Source: Aurantibacillus circumpalustris (GTDB lineage: Bacteria; Bacteroidota; Bacteroidia; B-17B0; Aurantibacillaceae). From it: a DNA stretch of 64,000 bases. The position numbers and the translations under genes were made by a program. Every line of letters begins with the position of its first letter. Position 1 is the stretch's first letter. The DNA is taken from contig NZ_CP121197.1 in the NCBI RefSeq assembly GCF_029625215.1, positions 3,286,001 to 3,350,000 on the forward strand, read 5' to 3'. Under the pieces are notes generated by a model. That model saw only the letters and a program-made list of their open reading frames with translations. It was not told the DNA's origin and made no database searches. Of the stretch, positions 15,916-27,983 are shown piece after piece.

Positions 15916-15958
15916 TAACCTTGAAATATTCAAATTAAATTTGAATATTTCAAGGTTA
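15916..15958. promoter_or_regulatory. perfect 43-bp palindrome upstream of the ATPase gene (operator-like)
   Basis: Two 21-bp arms around a single central A at 15937 form a perfect palindrome with the core TTGAAATATTCAAATT. The right arm contains the TTTG (15940-15943) that serves as the -33 element. A closely related palindrome stands before the sigma-factor gene at 17151-17195. Either a dimeric regulator binding site or a strong hairpin is possible; there is no T-tract, so a simple terminator is unlikely. Confidence 0.8.
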
Positions 15959-15971
15959 CTGATTACTTTTA
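15940..15971 (+). promoter_or_regulatory. promoter of the ATPase gene, overlapping the palindrome
   Basis: A -33 TTTG at 15940-15943, a 20-nt spacer, and a -7 TACTTTTA at 15964-15971. The ATG follows after 4 nt (CAAT), so the mRNA is probably leaderless. Confidence 0.65.
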
Positions 15972-15975
15972 CAAT

Positions 15976-17145
15976 ATGATAACGCGTAGCATTACTCCTT
16001 TAATTGAGAAGTATTCAAAGGAATTTCCTGTAATTGTGATACTTGGTCCGAGACAAGTAGGTAAAACAACGTTGGTAAAAATTATTGCCAAATCGTTAAA
16101 GAAAAAAACACATTATTTAGATTTGGAAAGGAATAGTGATTTTTCGACGCTTAACCGCGATGCAGAGGAGTATCTCTCTGCCTATACGAATGAGTGTGTT
16201 TTGATTGATGAAGTTCAACGTATGCCGACTTTATTTCCATTACTAAGAGCCTTAGTTGATGAAAACAGGAAACCAGCGCGTTTCATTATTACAGGATCAG
16301 CTTCTCCAGAACTTTTAAAAGGAGCGTCCGAAAGTTTAGCAGGAAGAGTTTATTATTTCTATCTTAATCCCATTGGTTTGCATGAATTACCAGGCACAAT
16401 CAGCATAAAAAAACATTGGTTCAGGGGTGGTTTTCCAAAAGCATTGACTCTTAAGAACAACGAATTATCATCGGGTTGGTTAGATGCTTTCATTACAACA
16501 TACATTGAGCGTGACTTGGCCATATTGTTTGATATTAAATTTTCACCCATTGTTATGCGAAAACTTTGGGGAATGCTTGCCCATTTACAAGGTGGTATTT
16601 TAAATGCAGAAAAATTAGGAAGTTCTTTAGATGTGAGCGGTACCACTATAAAGCGTTATATCGATTATCTGGAAGGTGCTTTTTTAATAAGAAGATTGCC
16701 ACCATATTTTGTAAATGTTGGTAAACGTTTGGTTAAGTCGCCAAAAGTGTACATTAACGATAGCGGTATTTTACATCATTTACTCCGCATTGGTAGTGAA
16801 AAAGAGCTTCTGAATAATCCCAGTGTTGGAGGTTCTTGGGAAGGATACGTGATTACGCAAATTATTAATGCTGCACCAAAACGCATTGACACTTATTATT
16901 ATCGAACGCAAGTTGGGGCGGAGTGCGATTTGGTACTGGTGCATGGTAATAACGTTAAAGCTTGCATAGAAATAAAATTAAGTAAAGCTCCTGTACCTTC
17001 TAAGGGATTTTATATTTCGGTGAGTGATCTTAATTGCAAACAAAATTTTATTATTTCATCTGCCGACCAAGATTACAAAAACAAACAAGGCACCGTTATA
17101 GTTGGATTGGATACGTTTATAAAAAAGTATCTACCAAAACTCTAA
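15976..17145 (+). CDS. AAA-family ATPase with C-terminal DUF4143
   Basis: 389 residues, normal length for the AAA_14-DUF4143 family. Walker A GPRQVGKTT is near residues 24-32, Walker B CVLIDEVQ near 75-82 and sensor-like IITGSAS near 105. The C-terminal half has the YIERDLA motif, a winged-helix-like segment (SGTTIKRYIDYLEGAFLIRRLPPY) and a nuclease-like end with ECDLVLVHGN and CIEIKLS (E-x-K). The family is abundant and scattered in Bacteroidota and archaea and has no firmly established role. The E-C-D ... E-I-K pattern recalls a PD-(D/E)xK nuclease core. The gene sits alone between two related palindromic promoter modules. Confidence 0.9.
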   Translation: MITRSITPLIEKYSKEFPVIVILGPRQVGKTTLVKIIAKSLKKKTHYLDLERNSDFSTLNRDAEEYLSAYTNECVLIDEVQRMPTLFPLLRALVDENRKPARFIITGSASPELLKGASESLAGRVYYFYLNPIGLHELPGTISIKKHWFRGGFPKALTLKNNELSSGWLDAFITTYIERDLAILFDIKFSPIVMRKLWGMLAHLQGGILNAEKLGSSLDVSGTTIKRYIDYLEGAFLIRRLPPYFVNVGKRLVKSPKVYINDSGILHHLLRIGSEKELLNNPSVGGSWEGYVITQIINAAPKRIDTYYYRTQVGAECDLVLVHGNNVKACIEIKLSKAPVPSKGFYISVSDLNCKQNFIISSADQDYKNKQGTVIVGLDTFIKKYLPKL

Positions 17146-17150
17146 AATTT

Positions 17151-17195
17151 ACAACATTGAAAAATTCAAATTGTATTTGAATTTTTCAATGTTGT
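17151..17195. promoter_or_regulatory. 45-bp palindrome between the ATPase and sigma genes
   Basis: Perfect 21-bp arms separated by TGT, sharing the words TTGAAAAATTCAAAT and ATTTGAATTTTTCAA with the palindrome at 15916-15958. It begins 5 bp after the ATPase stop, so it could also end the ATPase transcript, but its right arm supplies the -33 TTTG of the next gene. Confidence 0.8.
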
Positions 17196-17206
17196 TTATA
17201 TTTTTC
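17176..17206 (+). promoter_or_regulatory. promoter of the ECF sigma operon, overlapping the palindrome
   Basis: A -33 TTTG at 17176-17179, a 19-nt spacer, and a -7 TATTTTTC at 17199-17206. The TTG start follows after 4 nt (ACAA), the same spacing as at the ATPase gene. Confidence 0.6.
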
Positions 17207-17210
17207 ACAA

Positions 17211-17735
17211 TTGACAATAAAAGAAATATACGACAAACACAGTAAACAAGTATTCAACCTTGCGCTTCATTATGCTCAAAACACTGAGGATGCAGAAGAA
17301 ATAACGCAAGATGTTTTTGTGGCCATTCATCAATCACTACATGTTTTTCAAGAAAAATCACAGCTTGGCACCTGGATTTACCGCATCACCGTTAACAAAT
17401 CACTCGATTTTATTAAAGCCAGAAATCGAAAAAAACGTTTTGCTTTTATTACTTCTCTTTTTACAACTGATTCAGAGAAAGAACTTCATAACAGACCAAA
17501 TTTTGATCACCCAGGCATGCTTTTAGAGCAGAAGGAATCGCTTAAGATTTTATTCAATCATATAAACGATTTACCGGTAAATCAAAAAACGGCTCTAATC
17601 TTGAGTAAAATAGAACAGCAAAGTCAAAAAGAAATTGCTCAAATTATGAATATCAGTCCAAAGGCTGCTGAATCTCTTATTCAGAGGGCAAAAAAAAATT
17701 TATCAAAAAAAATAAATCGCCGCGAGGGAAATTAA
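17211..17735 (+). CDS. ECF RNA polymerase sigma factor
   Basis: 174 residues, starting at TTG 17211; no ATG lies nearby in frame and the promoter geometry supports this start. Region 2 (IYDKHSKQVFNLALHYAQNT, then EDAEEITQDVFVAIHQSL and GTWIYRITVNKSLDF) and region 4 (LPVNQKTALILSKIEQQS, then EIAQIMNISPKAAESLIQRA) are both complete. It redirects RNA polymerase to a stress regulon. It heads an operon with a small membrane protein, a CnrX/Spy-like protein, MbnP and an MbnH-like cytochrome, so a metal or envelope signal is the natural guess. Confidence 0.93.
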   Translation: MTIKEIYDKHSKQVFNLALHYAQNTEDAEEITQDVFVAIHQSLHVFQEKSQLGTWIYRITVNKSLDFIKARNRKKRFAFITSLFTTDSEKELHNRPNFDHPGMLLEQKESLKILFNHINDLPVNQKTALILSKIEQQSQKEIAQIMNISPKAAESLIQRAKKNLSKKINRREGN

Positions 17736-17761: not shown

Positions 17762-18040
17762 ATGACGGGAACTGATTTAAATAACGAACTACAGCGACTT
17801 GAAACTATACAATCTGTCGATGTGCCGGCTTTTTTGTTTACGCGTGTTCAGCAACGAATACAAAACGAAAGCTTTGGTAAGGTTACACCAAAAATAAAGT
17901 GGGCGCTTGCGTTTTCAATTATTGTTTTGTTTGTAATCAACCTACTTGCTATCTCAAGCTATCACTCAACTCAGGATTACAGAAACAATCTCGCAAAAGC
18001 CATGCAACTTTTACCGAATAATAATTTTTACAATGACTAA
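17762..18040 (+). CDS. small single-pass membrane protein, possible anti-sigma factor
   Basis: 92 residues. The soluble N-terminal ~45 residues (LNNELQRLETIQSVDVPAFLFTRVQQRIQN) resemble the N-terminal helices of short anti-sigma proteins. One transmembrane helix (WALAFSIIVLFVINLLAI) is followed by a short periplasmic tail. It starts 26 bp after the sigma stop and overlaps the next gene by 8 bp. There is no zinc-binding HxxxCxxC. Anti-sigma function is inferred from position and topology only. Confidence 0.7.
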   Translation: MTGTDLNNELQRLETIQSVDVPAFLFTRVQQRIQNESFGKVTPKIKWALAFSIIVLFVINLLAISSYHSTQDYRNNLAKAMQLLPNNNFYND

Positions 18041-18485
18041 ACTAAAATTAATCTCCTCCATCGCCATTGGTTTATTAATTGGTAATCTTTTATTAATTGC
18101 ATTTTTGTTTTTAAATAAACCAAAACCACCCAGACATGAAGGCCCAAAAGCCATCATCATTGAACGTTTGCATTTTGACGCTAAACAAATAGAAGCGTAT
18201 GAAGCGCTTATTAAAGTTCACAGAAAACAAATTAGCGAAAAAGAAATTGAAATATTAAATCTGAAAACCAGTTTGTATAGCTCTATTGTTGAGCCTTACA
18301 AAATTGCTCAGAAAGATTATCTTGAAAAAAAATTAGCCGAATTACAAATTGAAATTGAAGAAATTCATTACAAGCATTTTCTAGACATAAAAAAACTCTG
18401 TCACGATGATCAACTCAACAATTTTAATGAGCTCATAAAGGACATAGCTGGGCTGTTCTCAAAGCCTAAACCATCAGCAAGATGA
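18033..18485 (+). CDS. periplasmic heavy-metal sensor / CnrX-Spy-like protein
   Basis: 150 residues from the ATG at 18033; an earlier TTG in frame lies inside the upstream gene. One N-terminal membrane anchor (SSIAIGLLIGNLLLIAFLFL) precedes a helical hairpin domain with LHFDAKQIEAYEALIKVHRK and a second long helix ending HYKHFLDIKKLCHDD. This is the layout of the Metal_resist/LTXXQ superfamily, which includes CnrX and Spy. His and Cys residues in KLCHDD and HYKH could bind metal. The overlaps with both neighbours (8 and 4 bp) indicate one operon. Expected role: periplasmic sensing that controls the sigma factor. Confidence 0.8.
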   Translation: MTKLKLISSIAIGLLIGNLLLIAFLFLNKPKPPRHEGPKAIIIERLHFDAKQIEAYEALIKVHRKQISEKEIEILNLKTSLYSSIVEPYKIAQKDYLEKKLAELQIEIEEIHYKHFLDIKKLCHDDQLNNFNELIKDIAGLFSKPKPSAR

Positions 18486-19171
18486 AAAAACTAATTTCTT
18501 TTCTTCTTCTATTATCATTTGCAAGCAAGGGACAAAACACTTCTCCCATCACGCTTTCATTTAAGCAAAGTATAAAGAGTAACAAGTCTATTTTACTCGA
18601 TTCACTTTACACAATTTCTGATGGTACATCCCTAAAAATAGAAACCCTAAAATTTTACATTTCAAAAATTCAACTTTTAGATAAAAACAGAATCGTCTTT
18701 ACAGAAGAAAACAGCTTTTATTTAATTGACATTTCTGATATTAACTCATTAAAAATAGCCTTCAACATTCCAACAAACATCAAATACACACAACTCAAAT
18801 TTAATTTGGGAATTGATAGTCTAACCAATGTTTCTGGAGTTTACGGAGGAGATCTTGATCCCACAAAAGGTATGTACTGGACATGGCAAAGCGGCTATAT
18901 TAATTTTAAATTGGAAGGAACTTGTTCTGTTTGTCCTGGTGCAAAAAAAGAATTTCAATTTCATGTGGGCGGATATCAAGCTCCTTTTAATACTTTGAGG
19001 GAACTAACTTTAGAAACAAACCAAAAAAATAATATTGAAATTTTATTGGATCTAAAACAATTTCTTGAAAAGATAAGTTTGTCAAAACAGAATCACATTA
19101 TGTCACCAAACCGACAAGCTGTTGATTTATCAATCATTATAGCGAACGCCTTTCGAATAAATAAACCATGA
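18482..19171 (+). CDS. MbnP-family copper-associated periplasmic protein
   Basis: 229 residues with a cleavable signal (MKKLISFLLLLSFASKGQ). It shows the MbnP pattern: an ETLKFYISKIQL strand, GDLDPTKGMYWTWQSGY, and EGTCSVCPGAKKEFQFHVGGY. In methanotrophs MbnP is modified by the dihaem enzyme MbnH, which oxidises a tryptophan to kynurenine in a copper site; the Trp-rich YWTWQSGY segment here is a candidate target region. The next gene encodes an MbnH-like dihaem protein and overlaps it by 4 bp. This strongly supports the family call; copper binding itself is inferred. Confidence 0.87.
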   Translation: MKKLISFLLLLSFASKGQNTSPITLSFKQSIKSNKSILLDSLYTISDGTSLKIETLKFYISKIQLLDKNRIVFTEENSFYLIDISDINSLKIAFNIPTNIKYTQLKFNLGIDSLTNVSGVYGGDLDPTKGMYWTWQSGYINFKLEGTCSVCPGAKKEFQFHVGGYQAPFNTLRELTLETNQKNNIEILLDLKQFLEKISLSKQNHIMSPNRQAVDLSIIIANAFRINKP

Positions 19172-20190
19172 AACGTTTCGTGCACATAGCTTGTTTTCTA
19201 CCCTTTTGTGCATTTATTTCGCCTGAACCATTATTTGAATGTCCAAAAAACTGGCCAAAACCACACTACAATTTCTCAAAAAACCAACTTACGGAAAATA
19301 AAATCTTATTAGGAAGGGCTTTATTTTACGATCCTTTACTCTCTCGCAATAACATCATTTCTTGCGCTAGCTGTCATTCTCCGTTTTCTGCATTTACGCA
19401 TATTGATCACGCCTTAAGCCACGGAATTAACGATAGCATCGGCACTCGTAACTCTCCGGCCTTAATGAATTTGGCTTGGCAAACTTTATTTATGTGGGAT
19501 GGCGCCGTAAATAATTTAGACCTGCAAGCGCTTGCTCCTATTTCACATCCAGCTGAAATGGGAAGTTCTATTCAGGTTGTGATAAAGAAACTGAATGCTA
19601 GTAAATTATACCGACAACTATTTTTCAAAGCTTATGGTGATAGTAACATTACAGGTGAAAACACATTAAAATCGATTTCACAATTCATGCTCACCCTGGT
19701 AAGTGCGAATTCTAAATACGATCGTGTTAACGCACAAAAAGAAACCTTTACTGCGCAGGAATCAAATGGATATGAATTGTTTAAAAAGAACTGCACTTCC
19801 TGCCATCAAGAGCCTTTGTTTGCAAGCAATGATTTTGAAAATAACGGATTACCCATAGATACAACTCTTAATGATTATGGAAGAATGAAAGTCACTTTAA
19901 ACCCCAAAGATTCTCTCAAATTTAAAGTTCCTACTTTACGAAACATTGAATACACCTATCCTTACATGCACGATGGACGTTTTAAAAAATTATCAGAGGT
20001 GCTTAATCATTACACAAATAGCATTCACCTATCAAATACACTCGCGCCACAATTACAAAATGGTATGCTCCTTGCATCGAACGAAAAAGTAGATATAATA
20101 AGCTTTTTACTCACCTTATCGGACAAAGAATTTGTGTTTAATCCGAAACACCAGTACCCAAAAGATTTTTTTAACCAAGCGAGGGATTAA
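19168..20190 (+). CDS. dihaem cytochrome c peroxidase family protein, MbnH/MauG-like
   Basis: 340 residues with a secretion signal. There are two c-type haem motifs, CASCH near residue 66 and CTSCH near residue 210. Conserved family segments include ILLGRALFYDPLLS, TRNSPALMNLAWQ, MWDGAVNNLDLQA, PAEMG and YMHDGRF. It acts in the periplasm. Bacterial cytochrome c peroxidases and MauG/MbnH share this fold, and the adjacent MbnP gene argues for the MbnH-like protein-modifying role. It overlaps mbnP by 4 bp and is followed after 47 bp by a YHYH gene. Confidence 0.9.
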   Translation: MKRFVHIACFLPFCAFISPEPLFECPKNWPKPHYNFSKNQLTENKILLGRALFYDPLLSRNNIISCASCHSPFSAFTHIDHALSHGINDSIGTRNSPALMNLAWQTLFMWDGAVNNLDLQALAPISHPAEMGSSIQVVIKKLNASKLYRQLFFKAYGDSNITGENTLKSISQFMLTLVSANSKYDRVNAQKETFTAQESNGYELFKKNCTSCHQEPLFASNDFENNGLPIDTTLNDYGRMKVTLNPKDSLKFKVPTLRNIEYTYPYMHDGRFKKLSEVLNHYTNSIHLSNTLAPQLQNGMLLASNEKVDIISFLLTLSDKEFVFNPKHQYPKDFFNQARD

Positions 20191-20237
20191 TTAAATAACA
20201 TCGTCTAAACTTAATATAACCACCAACAAACAGATAA

Positions 20238-21623
20238 ATGAAAAACATAACACTAAGCATCACGGCTTCACTTCTTTCAATTTTTGGGGTAGCTCAAACC
20301 AGTCCAGCTATCACGTCCTGGCTACAAAATACAACTTTAACAGCAAGGCATTACGTTTCGGGTAATTCAACACCTATTAACGATGCCGATCTTGTAAACG
20401 TTCAGTCTGTAAAATATTCAACCAATTTTGTTTATGCCACAACAACTGGTTTGCCAAGCTATGTCACAGGACCATTTTTAGATGGGAATCCTTCACTGGC
20501 GACCAATCAAAACTCTATTTTTAAGTTTCCATTAAATCCTGTTCAAAACACGGGAACCCCTGTTAGCACAACCGGTGGAAACATAGGTGTTTTTATAAAT
20601 GGCGTGGCTTTGTTTGATTATAGAGATGGTGTTGCTTGGAACGCTACAACAAATACACTTTGCGGTGGACCAGGTAATCCGCCGTGTCCAGGTGGACCCA
20701 CCGCTACTTTTCCTTGGAACCGCGATGCCATTCCAGCAGAAAAAGGTGGATTTGATTGCTCTAAAGCACATCCAGCAATGGGTAACTATCATCACCACCA
20801 AAACCCAAGTGCTTTTAATTTAGATTTGAATGTCATTTCAACCGTTTGTAATTTATACAACGCAGATGGTTTGTATGCGATCGATAACACCAAACACTCT
20901 CCTCTTATTGGTTTTGCTTACGATGGGTTTCCAATATACGGCGCATATGGATACAAAAACGCTGATGGTACTGGTGGAATTACAAGAATTAAATCAAGTT
21001 ATGCCTTAAGAAATATAACAACAAGAACTACCGCGCCAGGTGGCGCTGCTGTTAGTTCTGGACCAGTTGTTAGCACAACTTACCCTTTGGGTTATTTTAG
21101 AGAAGATTATGAATACATTGCAACTTCTGCTACGACTCCTGATTATCTAGATGAACACAATGGTAGATTTTGTATAACACCAGAATATCCAAACGGTACT
21201 TATTGCTATTTCGCTACTGTGGATCAAAATTGGAATTCTGCCTATCCTTACGTTGTTGGGCCGACTTTTTACGGAACGATAACAGCTTCCAAGGTGACTT
21301 CAATTACAGAACCTGTTACAACCTACACCGCTGGCGCTACTCCTACAGGCATAGCTGCGAAAAACATAGAATCAAGTACAATCAATGTGTTTCCAAATCC
21401 CGCAAGTGATCTTGTTGCTATACAATTAATCAGTCTTACAAATGAGAATATCAAAATTGAATTATTTGATATCACCGGAAAACTGATTGATAAAACAACA
21501 TTATATCAAGGAAGCACCATCGCCTATTTTCACACAGAGACCTTGTATAACGGACAATATTTAATGAAGATATATTCTGGAGATACATACATTACTAAGA
21601 AATTCATTGTGAATAAAAATTAA
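20238..21623 (+). CDS. YHYH-domain secreted protein with T9SS type A sorting domain
   Basis: 461 residues. A signal peptide (MKNITLSITASLLSIFGVAQ) is followed by the YHYH domain: FINGVALFDYRDG, GNYHHHQNP, a GFAYDGFPIYGAYG block, and a DYEYIATSATTPDYLDEHNG segment. From about residue 380 the type A sorting domain follows (VFPNPASDLV, IELFDITGKLI, KKFIVNK). YHYH proteins often sit near copper or haem-protein genes, and the clustered His residues suggest metal binding. Its sorting signal would place it on the surface, unlike its presumed periplasmic operon partners. An intrinsic terminator follows, closing the operon. Confidence 0.88.
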   Translation: MKNITLSITASLLSIFGVAQTSPAITSWLQNTTLTARHYVSGNSTPINDADLVNVQSVKYSTNFVYATTTGLPSYVTGPFLDGNPSLATNQNSIFKFPLNPVQNTGTPVSTTGGNIGVFINGVALFDYRDGVAWNATTNTLCGGPGNPPCPGGPTATFPWNRDAIPAEKGGFDCSKAHPAMGNYHHHQNPSAFNLDLNVISTVCNLYNADGLYAIDNTKHSPLIGFAYDGFPIYGAYGYKNADGTGGITRIKSSYALRNITTRTTAPGGAAVSSGPVVSTTYPLGYFREDYEYIATSATTPDYLDEHNGRFCITPEYPNGTYCYFATVDQNWNSAYPYVVGPTFYGTITASKVTSITEPVTTYTAGATPTGIAAKNIESSTINVFPNPASDLVAIQLISLTNENIKIELFDITGKLIDKTTLYQGSTIAYFHTETLYNGQYLMKIYSGDTYITKKFIVNKN

Positions 21624-24095: not shown

Positions 24096-27000
24096 TTAAA
24101 CGCGGACTCCTATAAGCGCAATGTCATCGACCTGTTCGTTCTCTCCCATCCACTCACTTAAAGTTTTTGATAGAATTTCTTTTTGTTGATGCATTGGTTG
24201 TTGAGAAATAGAAATCAAAAGTACTTTCAATTGTTTGTACATAAACTTCTTTCCTCTTGGTCCACCAAATTGGTCAGGGTAGCCATCAGTTAAAGTGTAA
24301 ATAACATCTCCTTTCTTTATTTCAATGGTATGTTGTGTAAATGAAACTGAATCGTGATCATGTTTACCTACGGGCATTTTGTCTGGAGCAAATTCTAATA
24401 ATTTCTTTTCTCTAACAATCCAAATTGGATTATTAGCTGCTGCGTAAGTAATTTTATTGGCCTTAAAATCAAAACTTACTAAACTACAATCCATTCCATC
24501 TTTGCCACCTTCCGCGCTGCCATCTTTTTTTAAACGATCAATAATAGTTTTACGAGTGTCATTTAAAATATCAGCGGGTTCTGTTAAACCATCTTTAATG
24601 GCCAATTCTAAACCGGTGATGTTTAATAAACTCATAATAGCGCCAGGTACTCCATGTCCAGTGCTATCTGCGGTTACTAGGGCAAACTTGCCATTATTTA
24701 ATTTGGAAGCCCAATAAAAATCGCCACTCACAACATCTTTTGGTTGAAAGAAAACGAAGTAACTGTCGTCAGTTCGAGCAGGCTCGCTGCCTCTTTTCGA
24801 ACCATATCGAGAACTGTCTTCTATACCACTTTCTCTCCCAATAGTTATCGGAAACGCTTCGCTACTTGAAGTGACCCAATTCAAATTCTCATCCAACAAT
24901 TCTTTAGTTGCCATAAAACTACGCTGGATACGTTCTGCGTAATTAATGCTATCGGTAATTTCTTTGTGTTTTTCTTCTACTAAATGTTTTTGTCGTTCAA
25001 CAACAATGTTTTTTTGAACCAATTCTTCTGTTCTTTCTTCAACTGTTTTTTCCAAAATTTCTTTTTCTGCTTTTAATTTACGCTCACGCCATATGATGTA
25101 ATACCAAATAGAACCAACTACAAATAAAATAACCAAAGTCTTAAACCACCAGGTGAGCCACCAGGGTGGGCGAACAACAAAATTAAATTCAAAAGGCTCA
25201 CTCCAAACACCGCTTTGATTCATGGCCTTTATTTTAAAAACATAATCGCCGCTTGGTAAATTGCCATAAGGCGCTTCCGTTCTATCAGTAATTGAATTCC
25301 AATCGGGATCCATGCCTTCTAATTTATATTGGTATTTAATGTGATTGCGGCTTTGCATATGAACGCCAATAAAATTAAAAGTAAGGTTGTTGTTATTGTA
25401 CGGCAAACTTAAATGCTCAGGTAAATTAAACCATTTTGTAAGGCCATCAAACTTTATATCTTTCAATAAAATGCCGTTGGAAAGTAAAGTGTCAGTTGTT
25501 TTGCCATCGATTATATCTCTGCCTGTGCTATCGTTGCTAAATGCATTTAAATTTGCCCAGGCGATTTCCTCTCCAAATAATTTTACGCTTGTGAGGTTAA
25601 CAATTGGTGCGGTTGTATCAATAATACTTCCTTTAGGATCGTAACAGGTTAGTACATCAGTGCCCCACCAAATTCTTCCTTTGCAATCCTGCAAAACAGA
25701 ATTACGCCGACAGTTTAAACCGAGCAAACCATCGTTGTAACCGTAATTATAAAAAAGAGCCTCCTTTATGGGGTTGAATCCTTTTTCTCCCTTTCCTTCC
25801 GAGAAGGCAAGGCTGTGGCTTAACTTGGCCAACTTATTAGCTGTTATTTTACTTAATCCCTTTCGAGTACCAAACCAAATATTTCCTTCAGTATCTTGAA
25901 TCATATTTGCCACCGCATTATTTGACAGGCCTTCTTTCTCTGTAAAATTGATAAAGGATTTCCCATCGTAGCGACAGACCCCGCCATCAGTGCCGAACCA
26001 AAGGTTTCCGGTTTTATCTTCTACAATACTCGAAACAACATTATTGCTCAGGCCTTCTTTCTCCGTAAAATTGGTAAAGGACGGCAAAAGTCCGGTGGGC
26101 TTTTGAGCGAGATTGAGCGCTTGCAAATATTTTGAATCTAATCGACACACGCCCCCGCCACGAGTGCCGAACCAAAGGTTTCCGGTTTTATCTTCTACAA
26201 TACTCAAAACAAAATTATTGCTAAGGCCTTCTTTCTCCGTAAAATTGGTAAAGGATTTCCCATCGTAGCGACAGACCCCATCATAAGTGCCGAACCAAAG
26301 GTTTCCGGTTTTATCTTCTACAATACTATAAACTGCATTATAACTTAGGCCTTCTTTCTCCGTAAAATTGATAAAGGATTTGCCATCGTAGCGACAGACC
26401 CCCCCATAAGTGCCCAACCAAAGGTTTCCGGTTTTATCTTCTACAATACTCAAAACAACATTATTGCTCAGGCCTTCTTTCTCCGTAAAATTGGTAAAGG
26501 ATTTGCCATCATAACAGCATACACCCCCGCCTTCAGTGCCGAACCAAAGGTTTCCGGTTTTATCTTCTACAATACTCAAAACAAAATTATTGCTAAGGCC
26601 TTCTTTCTCCGTAAAATTGATAAAGGATTTGCCATCATAACGGCATACGCCCCCGCCATTAGTGCCGACCCAAAGGTTTCCGGTTTTATCTGCTACAATA
26701 CTATAAACAGAATTATTGCTTAGGCCTTCTTTCTCCGTAAAATTGGTAAAGGATTTAACAAATCTTCCATTTATTTTTTTAAGGTCTTGTTGTGTTCGTT
26801 GAGCAATTTTATCTCCTTTTTCAATAGCCTCAACTCGATTCCCATCATAACGACAGACCCCGCCATTAGTGGCGAACCAAAGGTTTCCGGTTTTATCTTC
26901 TACAATACTATAAACAGAATTATTACTCAAGCCTTCTTTCTCCGTAAAAGTGGTAAAGGATTTGCCATCATAACGGCACACGCCTCCGTCATCAGTGGCG

Positions 27001-27983
27001 AACCAAAGGTTTCCGGTTTTATCTTCTACAATACTATAAACAATATTATCGCTCAGGCCTTCTTTCTCCGTAAAATTGGTAAAGGATTTGCCATCATAAC
27101 GGCACACGCCCCCGCCATCAGTAGCGAACCAAAGGTTTCCGGTTTTATCTTCTACAATACTATAAACAGAATTATTGCTCAGGCCTTCTTTCTCTGTAAA
27201 ATAGGTAAAGGATTTGCCATCATAACGGCACGCGCCCCCGCCACGAGTGCTGAACCAAAGGTTCCCGGTCTTATCTTCTACAATACTATAAACAACATTG
27301 TTGCTCAGGCCTTCTTTCTCCGTAAAATTGACAAAGGATTTGCCATCATAACGGCACACGCCCCCGCCATTAGTGCCGAACCAAAGGTTTCCGGTTTTAT
27401 CTTCTACAATACTCAAAACAACATTATTGCTCAGGCCTTCTTTCTCTGTAAAATAGGTAAAGGATTTGCCATCATAACGGCACACGCCCCCGCCAGTAGT
27501 ACCGAACCAAAGGTTTCCGGTTTTATCTTGCAACATACACCTAACTGCATTGTGCTTTAAACCTTGTAGTGTTTTATAAAACGAAAAATTAGCAGGGTTT
27601 ACATCTTTGGCAGCGGCATCTTTAGCAATTACAACTTTGGGTATGCCTGCGGGTTTTGTTTTGCCAGTGGTTGCAACAGTTTTTGGTAATAAAAAAGTAT
27701 CGGTGCCGGGAGTATTTACTTTGGGTAATCCGGCAATAATAACATTGCCTTCACCAGCTATGTAAACGTTTAAATTTGTTGGGTTTACTTTTGGTGTTCC
27801 TGCTTTTACGGTTATTGGTATTCCGGCCGGAATAGTTTTTGGTTCACTTACGCTGTCTTTTGGTAACACATAGCCGTGGGCTTCCACCACTTTTATGGTA
27901 TGGGTATTACTGTGTTGCTTGTTTTTTTGGTTGCAGGCAAATGCAAATAAAAGAAGTAGCAAGAGGGTTTGGGTTTTCTTCAT
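24096..27983 (-). CDS. two-component-type propeller sensor with SpoIIE/PP2C phosphatase output
   Basis: 1295 residues. N-terminal type II signal with lipobox-like AFAC (Cys17), then a Pro/Lys/Thr-rich linker (residues ~30-130). Residues ~131-785 hold fourteen propeller blades of about 42 residues, the first thirteen nearly identical (FTEKEGLSNN, SIVEDKTGNLWFGT, GGGVCRYDG). Fourteen blades fit two seven-bladed propellers. A Y_Y_Y domain follows (~850-935; YKLEGMDPDWNS and NLPSGDYVF), then one transmembrane helix (~943-965), a coiled coil (~965-1030) and a SpoIIE/PP2C domain (DVVSGDFYW, ALVTADSTGHGVPGA, GMDCSL, LTDGYPDQFGG). It probably senses an extracytoplasmic ligand and dephosphorylates an anti-sigma antagonist in the cytoplasm. 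A lipobox plus an internal membrane helix is unusual. Confidence 0.92.
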   Translation of the reverse strand: MKKTQTLLLLLLFAFACNQKNKQHSNTHTIKVVEAHGYVLPKDSVSEPKTIPAGIPITVKAGTPKVNPTNLNVYIAGEGNVIIAGLPKVNTPGTDTFLLPKTVATTGKTKPAGIPKVVIAKDAAAKDVNPANFSFYKTLQGLKHNAVRCMLQDKTGNLWFGTTGGGVCRYDGKSFTYFTEKEGLSNNVVLSIVEDKTGNLWFGTNGGGVCRYDGKSFVNFTEKEGLSNNVVYSIVEDKTGNLWFSTRGGGACRYDGKSFTYFTEKEGLSNNSVYSIVEDKTGNLWFATDGGGVCRYDGKSFTNFTEKEGLSDNIVYSIVEDKTGNLWFATDDGGVCRYDGKSFTTFTEKEGLSNNSVYSIVEDKTGNLWFATNGGVCRYDGNRVEAIEKGDKIAQRTQQDLKKINGRFVKSFTNFTEKEGLSNNSVYSIVADKTGNLWVGTNGGGVCRYDGKSFINFTEKEGLSNNFVLSIVEDKTGNLWFGTEGGGVCCYDGKSFTNFTEKEGLSNNVVLSIVEDKTGNLWLGTYGGVCRYDGKSFINFTEKEGLSYNAVYSIVEDKTGNLWFGTYDGVCRYDGKSFTNFTEKEGLSNNFVLSIVEDKTGNLWFGTRGGGVCRLDSKYLQALNLAQKPTGLLPSFTNFTEKEGLSNNVVSSIVEDKTGNLWFGTDGGVCRYDGKSFINFTEKEGLSNNAVANMIQDTEGNIWFGTRKGLSKITANKLAKLSHSLAFSEGKGEKGFNPIKEALFYNYGYNDGLLGLNCRRNSVLQDCKGRIWWGTDVLTCYDPKGSIIDTTAPIVNLTSVKLFGEEIAWANLNAFSNDSTGRDIIDGKTTDTLLSNGILLKDIKFDGLTKWFNLPEHLSLPYNNNNLTFNFIGVHMQSRNHIKYQYKLEGMDPDWNSITDRTEAPYGNLPSGDYVFKIKAMNQSGVWSEPFEFNFVVRPPWWLTWWFKTLVILFVVGSIWYYIIWRERKLKAEKEILEKTVEERTEELVQKNIVVERQKHLVEEKHKEITDSINYAERIQRSFMATKELLDENLNWVTSSSEAFPITIGRESGIEDSSRYGSKRGSEPARTDDSYFVFFQPKDVVSGDFYWASKLNNGKFALVTADSTGHGVPGAIMSLLNITGLELAIKDGLTEPADILNDTRKTIIDRLKKDGSAEGGKDGMDCSLVSFDFKANKITYAAANNPIWIVREKKLLEFAPDKMPVGKHDHDSVSFTQHTIEIKKGDVIYTLTDGYPDQFGGPRGKKFMYKQLKVLLISISQQPMHQQKEILSKTLSEWMGENEQVDDIALIGVRV
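25877..27595 (-). repeat. 13 near-identical ~126-bp tandem repeats coding propeller blades
   Basis: Each unit encodes one 42-residue blade, and long stretches are identical at DNA level (for example the segment encoding VEDKTGNLW). Two units carry insertions, of about 27 and 17 residues, encoding unrelated linkers. Such an array can gain or lose blades by recombination and can be misassembled. Confidence 0.9.

Follow-up and report, generated by a model that had tools for sequence, protein, structure and literature searches.

A palindromic site that accompanies DUF4143 ATPase genes brackets such a gene ahead of a sigma factor operon in Aurantibacillus circumpalustris

The closest described system to the gene discussed here is PDC-S01 of the PADLOC collection. 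In the parts of PMC12988326 that deal with it, PDC-S01 is presented as an ATPase domain fused to a PD-(D/E)XK member, as the fourth most common defence system in prokaryotes (29,494 in Bacteria and 9,986 in Archaea), and as having been transferred multiple times across domains; for most such defence candidates, experimental validation is described there as pending. In the relevant passage on Thermus HB27 (PMC4406477), the AAA_14-DUF4143 gene TT_P0211 is up 6.6-fold with the plasmid present in the Ago-bearing strain. The window analysed here, a stretch of 64,000 nucleotides of the A. circumpalustris genome (contig NZ_CP121197.1), contains a gene whose product matches the PDC-S01 models as well as the Pfam families AAA_14 and DUF4143. 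This ATPase gene lies between two copies of a palindromic site, the second of which stands ahead of a gene for an extracytoplasmic function (ECF) sigma factor. The word stem 'palindrom' is absent from the main text of PMC12988326, and no paper in the open-access PMC literature was found to combine it with DUF4143; within these searches, and as far as the open PMC subset shows, a palindromic site of the PDC-S01/DUF4143 family is new.

Several well-known arrangements resemble this locus in part. Like the gene cassettes of integrons with their attC sites, it consists of a single gene followed by a palindromic site, with direct copies on both sides and one left after loss; unlike them, the unit encodes an ATPase-nuclease and its site overlaps the gene's own promoter, although no search for integron integrases or an attC consensus was made. 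With the IS200/IS605 insertion sequences and the REP/RAYT systems it shares one gene between palindromic ends, a length of about 1.25 kb and presence or absence among relatives, but the Pfam matches of the window unit include no transposase family and most of the 76 Bacteroidia homologs described below are without a 3' site. Autorepressor operators are likewise dyad-symmetric sites over a gene's own promoter; the site described here differs in being a 37-bp, often perfect palindrome whose core varies by locus yet stays symmetric, with a copy past the stop codon in one clade.

An earlier reading of this stretch (the original prediction) held that perfect palindromes with 21-bp arms stand ahead of both the ATPase gene (start at 15976) and the sigma gene (start at 17211). 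A listing of inverted repeats in the window (arms of at least 16 nt, spacing up to 30 nt) bears this out, the two palindromes being the longest of the 11 repeats listed. Throughout the 4.60-Mb genome, the palindrome pattern matches at these two places only, both as a 33-mer with at most 3 mismatches and as a relaxed-gap pattern. The first palindrome ends 17 nt ahead of the ATPase ATG, and the second starts 5 nt past the ATPase stop codon and ends 15 nt ahead of the sigma TTG. The 37-bp cores of the two copies differ at two base pairs in which both sides have changed (C-G/A-T and T-A/A-T) and at one central pair, which is unpaired in copy 2. The palindromes were also thought to be parts of homologous modules of about 60 bp. 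The 59-nt stretches that hold them (15917-15975 and 17153-17211) are indeed 78% identical, but by eye no more than 11 of 18 positions agree beyond the palindromes, so that homology of the modules outside these is weak.

The same site was found with ATPase genes of the family well outside this genome. A first sample comprised 113 ATPase genes, namely 26 from relatives including the window genome, 7 plasmid homologs and 80 loci of many phyla. When the best dyad of 36-38 bp within 80 nt of the start codon was scored by its complementary pairs, 56 of the 113 genes had at least 12 of 15 outer pairs, as compared to 12 of 534 other open reading frames (ORFs) from the same loci. At a stricter score of at least 10 in the interval [-75,+3], the figures were 43 of 113 genes, 6 of 565 shuffled sequences and 7 of 535 other ORFs. 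A scan of spans from 30 to 47 gave the highest gene count at 37 (49 genes; 10 control ORFs), and the site of 42 of the 113 genes can be placed by the outer motif seen most often, CCnTG...CAnGG. The second sample, which overlaps the first, was drawn from matches at E <= 1e-80 in 395 genomes of the class, with at most 4 candidates scored per genome; it gave 78 matches in 54 genomes, of which 76 loci were used and two at contig ends (G488 and G620) left out. A 37-bp dyad lies within 90 nt of the gene in 59 of these 76 Bacteroidia homologs, at or shortly ahead of the start codon. The site thus accompanies members of the ATPase family in many phyla, and the palindromes almost certainly belong to the ATPase gene.

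A gene-blind search with the commonest form of the site in 296 genomes of the phylum returned 25 sites in 20 genomes, against 9 for the reversed control. An ATPase frame starts beside the site in 7 of the 20 loci examined, one of which is the window's own and one a broken gene, and at one locus the ATPase gene lies on the other side of the site. Among the loci without an ATPase gene, L162 shows by eye an apparent remnant of a gene start. L174 has a 38-bp site (1501-1538) without an ATPase, 27 nt ahead of an ORF whose product presumably resembles LLM-class oxidoreductases.

Comparison of the sites revealed that the two arms change together. The alignment held 43 sites, 42 placed by the outer motif only and window copy 2 added by hand. 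Pairing cells make up 79.3% of this alignment versus 61.9 +- 1.1 in shuffles, cells changed on both sides number 154 versus 65.9 +- 6.5 (0 of 500 shuffles), and the covariation score is 0.428 versus 0.152 in shuffles and 0.09-0.14 in slid versions. Counted by pairs, double changes are not exceptional: 14 pairs have at least one, versus 12.7 (87 of 500 shuffles). Positions 6 and 12-16 differ among loci yet remain complementary inside each locus, and among the 42 motif-placed sites 8.98 of 13 inner pairs form within a locus versus 5.52 across loci. An excess of G-U among the non-Watson-Crick cells was not seen (28 of 188, versus 15.2% in shuffles). Since the arms covary strongly without such an excess, the symmetry acts on the DNA, and nothing points to selection for an RNA stem. 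Positions 6 and 12-16, the variable ones, also track protein distance over 37 loci (r = 0.34, 0 of 2000 permutations), which the outer positions of the site do not (r = -0.11).

A 3' copy of the site was attributed to 15 of the 76 Bacteroidia genes, 14 of them by a direct repeat score of at least 13 and L178 by its palindrome despite a low repeat score. Left out of this count were L239 (a coding repeat), L227 (14 nt) and L225, whose palindrome serves a neighbouring second ATPase gene as its 5' site. Of the 15 genes, twelve belong to a single clade of 18 members, the window gene among them (support 97/97), and on the tree of all 76 the distribution of 3' copies requires 8 changes versus 13.9 when shuffled (0 of 500). 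A further set of loci was obtained from the family of G538 (f11) by taking 15 of 20 matches to its unit, three others being already counted and two partial ones omitted; 14 of the 15 have a 3' dyad of at least 12 pairs and 10 a 5' one. The two copies at a locus resemble each other. Among 22 two-ended loci selected by hand from 30, the 5' and 3' cores of the same locus are 0.89 identical on average versus 0.61 for cross pairs, and in 20 of the 22 the own 3' copy is closest, or jointly closest, to the 5' copy. In an earlier comparison, in which 6 of 8 were kept (L013 and L096 were dropped for reasons similar to those given above), none of 651 cross-locus pairs scored 13 or more.

The ORF that follows the 3' copy, taken from mechanically called frames, is convergent in 10 of the 15 genes including the window gene, codirectional in 3, far away in 1 and unclear in 1; among the codirectional ones the window sigma gene begins at +65 and the others at +231 and +283. 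Because the next ORF is mostly convergent, the 3' copy is generally no promoter module for the following gene. As a finding that would speak against it, the original prediction had named palindromes that lie at the ends of unrelated genes without a promoter following them, and for the 3' copy this is largely the situation encountered.

Three pairs of genomes (G538/G694, G695/G696 and G494/G678), representing two loci and two genera, show the unit in a filled and a solo state. The filled state is palindrome-ATPase-palindrome, about 1.25 kb in length, and the solo state is exactly one palindrome with the ATPase absent. In G538 the unit measures 1,243 nt from the left edge of one palindrome to the left edge of the other; G694, whose flanks are 95.9% and 93.9% identical to those of G538, carries one palindrome at this place without an ATPase. 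The left flank of the G694 site agrees at 60 of 60 positions with the sequence to the left of the G538 5' copy and at 22 of 60 with that to the left of the 3' copy, and its right flank agrees at 26 of 30 positions with the sequence to the right of the 3' copy and at 15 of 30 with that of the 5' copy. The solo site itself matches the 3' copy at 37 of 37 positions and the 5' copy at 36. Alignment of the filled G695 with the solo G696 gives the same contrast at this locus. In the other genus, the G494 unit spans 1,251 nt and the flanks of G678 are 97.1% and 92.7% identical; the solo site of G678 has the left flank of the 5' copy (57/60) and the right flank of the 3' copy (44/60, versus 19/60). 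A search with the G538 unit DNA (E <= 1e-20, six candidates scored per genome) found G494 but gave no match in G694, G696 or G678, which speaks against the assemblies having merely skipped the gene. Since the filled relatives G538, G695 and G697 surround G694, loss by recombination between the copies is favoured over insertion with duplication of the site as the origin of its solo state. Additionally, G700 has neither unit nor palindrome, and in G440 about ten bases of the right arm remain.

The bracketed unit is therefore very probably a discrete unit of gain and loss in this clade. Insertion of the ATPase gene with a duplication of the module, one of the alternatives considered at the outset, is supported in substance by the three pairs, except that the doubled part is the palindrome and not the promoter box. 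Of the relatives lacking the ATPase, G694, G696 and G678 keep a solo palindrome, and the sigma orthologs have none at the 19 loci read.

At other loci the edges of the unit could be followed in part. In two comparisons, G538 with G697 and L219 with L223, the upstream sequences cease to match at the left edge of the 5' palindrome; the second comparison is limited by a 61-bp repeat and a short contig. This repeat (L223, 545-604 and 1973-2033 in gene orientation, 92% identical) flanks the ATPase gene in L223 and is single in L219. At the locus of L007, the nearest homolog, the neighbouring genes are adjacent in G437 with no ATPase and no palindrome between them, the sequences having diverged too far for the ends to be placed. 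The window locus itself yielded no filled/solo pair, and the Agrobacterium and Thermus plasmids, where L068 and L069 lack the 3' repeat, yielded no clean filled/empty pair. In the Agrobacterium/Rhizobium plasmid loci L069, L153 and L154 the ATPase gene and its 5' site lie behind a gene of the RHE_PE00001 family and an integrase gene; in their relative L151 the ATPase copy is internally deleted and the site is intact.

The 5' site is placed where it could act on transcription. The -7 consensus of Bacteroidota is TAnnTTTG, and this box occurs between -25 and -1 in 31 of the 76 Bacteroidia ATPase genes versus 10 of 105 other ORFs. In 25 of the 31 genes it ends 4-5 nt ahead of the start codon, a spacing that suggests leaderless ATPase transcripts. 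Among 29 motif-placed sites that abut the start codon, 21 have TTGnAA at columns 3-8, and a TATAAT-like hexamer (at least 4/6) is commonest at columns 25 and 26 (34% and 31%); with these elements inside it, the site overlaps the presumed promoter of the ATPase gene. The promoter layout originally proposed for the window is recognizable, with TTTG at 15940-15943 followed after 20 nt by TACTTTTA and after 4 more by the ATG, and for the sigma gene a TA-rich box within 17197-17206 ahead of the TTG at 17211; the final G of the consensus is missing from both -7 boxes. As judged by sequence, a symmetric site thus covers the gene's own predicted promoter, as an operator would, and we lean towards the view that the 5' site is an autoregulatory operator.

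The ATPase was assigned to DUF4143 with 139 bits (cut-off 28.1) and to AAA_14 with 101.1 bits (cut-off 27), a combination that we take to correspond to COG1373. The best PDC-S01 model is PDLC04790 (E 5.1e-90), and PDLC04789 matches residues 1-338 (E 8.3e-56); no transposase family is present among the Pfam and NCBIfam matches. In an alignment of 103 sequences, E289 and E316 are invariant and D318, E332 and K334 are conserved at 90% or more, so that the residues of the PD-(D/E)XK motif (E...ExD...ExK in the window protein) are in place, and the Walker-type residues are likewise invariant or conserved to at least 90%. The AlphaFold2 model has a predicted local distance difference test score (pLDDT) of 96.2. 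Over residues 1-271, the best structural matches among those listed are the archaeal AAA+ ATPases PABY2304 (2qen, Z 16.6) and SSO1545 (2fna, Z 16.4), which are similar in this region and differ at a sequence identity of 15-19%; 2fna was also found by sequence profile (E 2.6e-9, the best row whose stretch passes on its own). We know of no palindromic site at the SSO1545 or PABY2304 genes. A weak sequence match to a winged helix (2fbh, E 0.008) covers residues 205-256. When the C-terminal domain was modelled alone (pLDDT 88.9), its Foldseek matches were mostly nucleases, with McrC first (E 3.1e-3) and none at E <= 0.001; McrC, Card1, VRR_NUC and Hjc, which are among the top matches, presumably all have the PD-(D/E)XK fold. 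Homologs are patchily distributed among relatives and occur in 388 plasmid records. As a PDC-S01 member, the ATPase gene is a candidate anti-phage gene.

The reading that best covers these observations, and that we consider probable, is an autoregulated AAA+/PD-(D/E)XK gene unit which is bracketed by its own recognition sites and is gained and lost as a block. Both palindromes would be copies of one recognition site owned by the enclosed gene. The encoded AAA+/winged-helix/PD-(D/E)XK protein would bind the 37-bp core as a symmetric assembly and, in the simplest case, repress its own leaderless transcript from the promoter-overlapping site. The unit would be gained as a block, and recombination between the two direct copies could remove it and leave one solo palindrome, so that solo sites would arise by loss rather than precede insertion. 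In the window an unrelated sigma-MbnP-MauG operon follows directly downstream of the unit, and any effect on the sigma gene would be incidental. The initial observation on the palindromes is thus right, and more general than the window alone could show.

Several results weigh against this reading. At the threshold used, 17 of the 76 Bacteroidia homologs have no 5' dyad, and 61 are without a 3' copy, so that two sites are not required for the gene; by profile, 12 of the 20 gene-blind loci have no ATPase, meaning that sites, or chance matches, also stand alone. The correlation between protein and site is not specific to the winged-helix part (full length 0.34, winged helix-turn-helix 0.28, AAA 0.30), and the pairs that differ between the 5' and 3' copies of one locus are mostly uncompensated (10 compensated, 44 not). 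As to the filled and solo loci, all genomes concerned are multi-contig assemblies, two of the three pairs represent one locus, and a naive pre-insertion site resolved to the base was not found among the loci compared. Finally, both window palindromes fit a terminator pattern (5 matches versus 0.9 +- 0.8 in shuffles), and 7 of the 14 assessable 3' copies are followed by a T-rich tail (6 or more T among the first 10 nt), the 14 being without L176, which is cut.

The last two findings would suit RNA hairpins, of which the 5' one would shield the gene and the 3' one terminate its transcript. We regard this as very unlikely, as G-U pairs are not in excess, a span of 37 bp is preferred, and a 5' site that overlaps the promoter would stay untranscribed; moreover, a terminator need not copy the sequence of an upstream site. 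A plain terminator was rejected in view of the 7 of 14 3' copies without a T-rich tail, and RNA hairpins in general are disfavoured by the G-U counts. The original prediction had put forward a further alternative, in which one regulator acts on both palindromes and ties the ATPase to a metal/envelope response through the sigma-MbnP-MauG operon. The sigma start indeed lies just past the 3' palindrome with a -7-like stretch between them, and a bound protein would cover the presumed sigma promoter. The sigma factor matched at the cut-off in 24 of 40 genomes of the genus, and the 20 best loci besides the window's own were compared; the upstream region could be read in 19, L053 being out of register because its flank is cut. 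The operon is kept, 18 of these loci having a homolog of the 18.0-18.5 kb gene and 10 having MbnP, but no ATPase was found near any of the 20 sigma orthologs within the flank examined, and a palindrome scoring at least 9 was not found within 200 nt upstream in any of the 19. Sites also accompany ATPase genes in other contexts, and the 3' copies of other genomes mostly face convergent genes. A shared regulon was accordingly rejected as the leading explanation and seems improbable, although in this one genome the position of the 3' copy would allow it to control the sigma gene.

Two other explanations concern how the unit came to its place. Insertion into a palindrome already present in the host, for example a terminator, with duplication of the target, would explain the solo palindromes of G694, G696 and G678 and the gene-less site at L174. 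It is nevertheless quite unlikely: the variable core tracks the protein and sites of the same design occur with the gene in many phyla, which indicates that the site travels with the gene, and neither the sigma orthologs nor G437 at the L007 locus show the palindrome that such an insertion would have met; the filled genomes around G694 also favour loss. The same two arguments, the tracking of the protein and the occurrence with the gene in many phyla, speak against a host transcription factor as the binder, although such a factor is conceivable in principle. Alternatively, the AAA+ nuclease might recognise both end palindromes and drive its own excision and insertion, making the unit a small autonomous element without a known transposase. 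Such active mobility or homing would agree with a site at each end and three precise filled/solo pairs, with the invariant or nearly invariant PD-(D/E)XK residues and the nuclease matches of the C-terminal model, with the patchy distribution and the plasmid-borne homologs, and with flanks that part at the left edge of the 5' palindrome. However, ordinary recombination between direct repeats of about 40-50 bp accounts equally well for the solo loci, no near-identical genes within one genome were found in the tree of 76 (at most 4 candidates scored per genome), most genes have no 3' copy, and the Agrobacterium gene sits behind an integrase gene with no clean empty site found. We therefore hold active mobility to be doubtful, and prefer the autoregulated unit that is gained and lost as a block.

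The features of the window that bear on this unit are collected in Table 1.

Table 1. Features of the palindrome-ATPase-palindrome unit and its downstream neighbour (window positions)
Feature	Position	Strand	Remarks
5' palindrome	15916..15958	.	Arms 15916-15936 and 15938-15958, 21 bp, 100% complementary, 1-nt loop; 37-bp family core 15919-15955; covers -33 TTTG of the ATPase promoter
-7-like box TACTTTTA (15964-15971) and 4-nt gap to ATG	15964..15975	+	Probably a leaderless start; read from sequence
AAA_14-DUF4143 ATPase, 389 aa, PADLOC PDC-S01	15976..17145	+	AAA+ domain, winged-helix-like region, PD-(D/E)XK-like C-terminal domain
3' palindrome, second copy of the ATPase gene's own site	17151..17195	.	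21-bp perfect arms (21 perfect pairs), 3-nt loop; core 17155-17191
Whole palindrome-ATPase-palindrome unit	15916..17195	+	Unit status by homology; filled/solo pairs come from loci other than the window's
TA-rich -7-like stretch just beyond the 3' palindrome	17197..17206	+	Probably the sigma operon's; neighbour, outside the unit
ECF sigma gene, first in a conserved operon	17211..17735	+	Neighbour, outside the unit

Beyond the sigma gene the operon continues (17762-21623) with a 92-aa protein that matches no Pfam family, another of about 150-180 aa, MbnP, a di-haem cytochrome c peroxidase (MauG type) and a YHYH protein that ends in a Por secretion tail. Further downstream, the minus strand encodes a 1295-aa protein (24096-27983) with many near-identical repeats, as seen by eye. 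Some other loci carry more than one site or unusual upstream regions. L158 (G327) shows by eye three tandem site copies upstream of the ATPase gene (about 1501-1650), and in L020-L024 the region upstream of the start contains arrays of TGTCAA...TTGAC-like repeats reminiscent of multi-operator promoters. In L225 a separate 37-bp palindrome belongs to each of two neighbouring ATPase genes, the second site lying at +64 after the stop codon, and the cores of the two are unlike, which suggests orthogonal specificity of the paralogs.

A diversified site at the promoter gives each protein of the family a ready candidate DNA ligand, with which autoregulation and specificity can be assayed, and the 37-bp site offers a way to spot remnants of lost units. 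If the unit is only lost by recombination, this still helps account for the patchy distribution of a candidate defence gene; if it moves itself, it would be a new kind of mobile element. A bolder and rather speculative extension, which we consider unlikely, is that PDC-S01-type ATPase-nucleases are new minimal selfish or mobile units that recognise their own 37-bp palindrome, at one end of the gene or at both, and use it for shutdown of the leaderless promoter as well as for excision or homing, with the core diversified between paralogs so that units in the same genome avoid cross-reaction. Should that be true, a gene family that ranks among the most widespread uncharacterised ones in prokaryotes would consist of mobile elements with a built-in recognition site.

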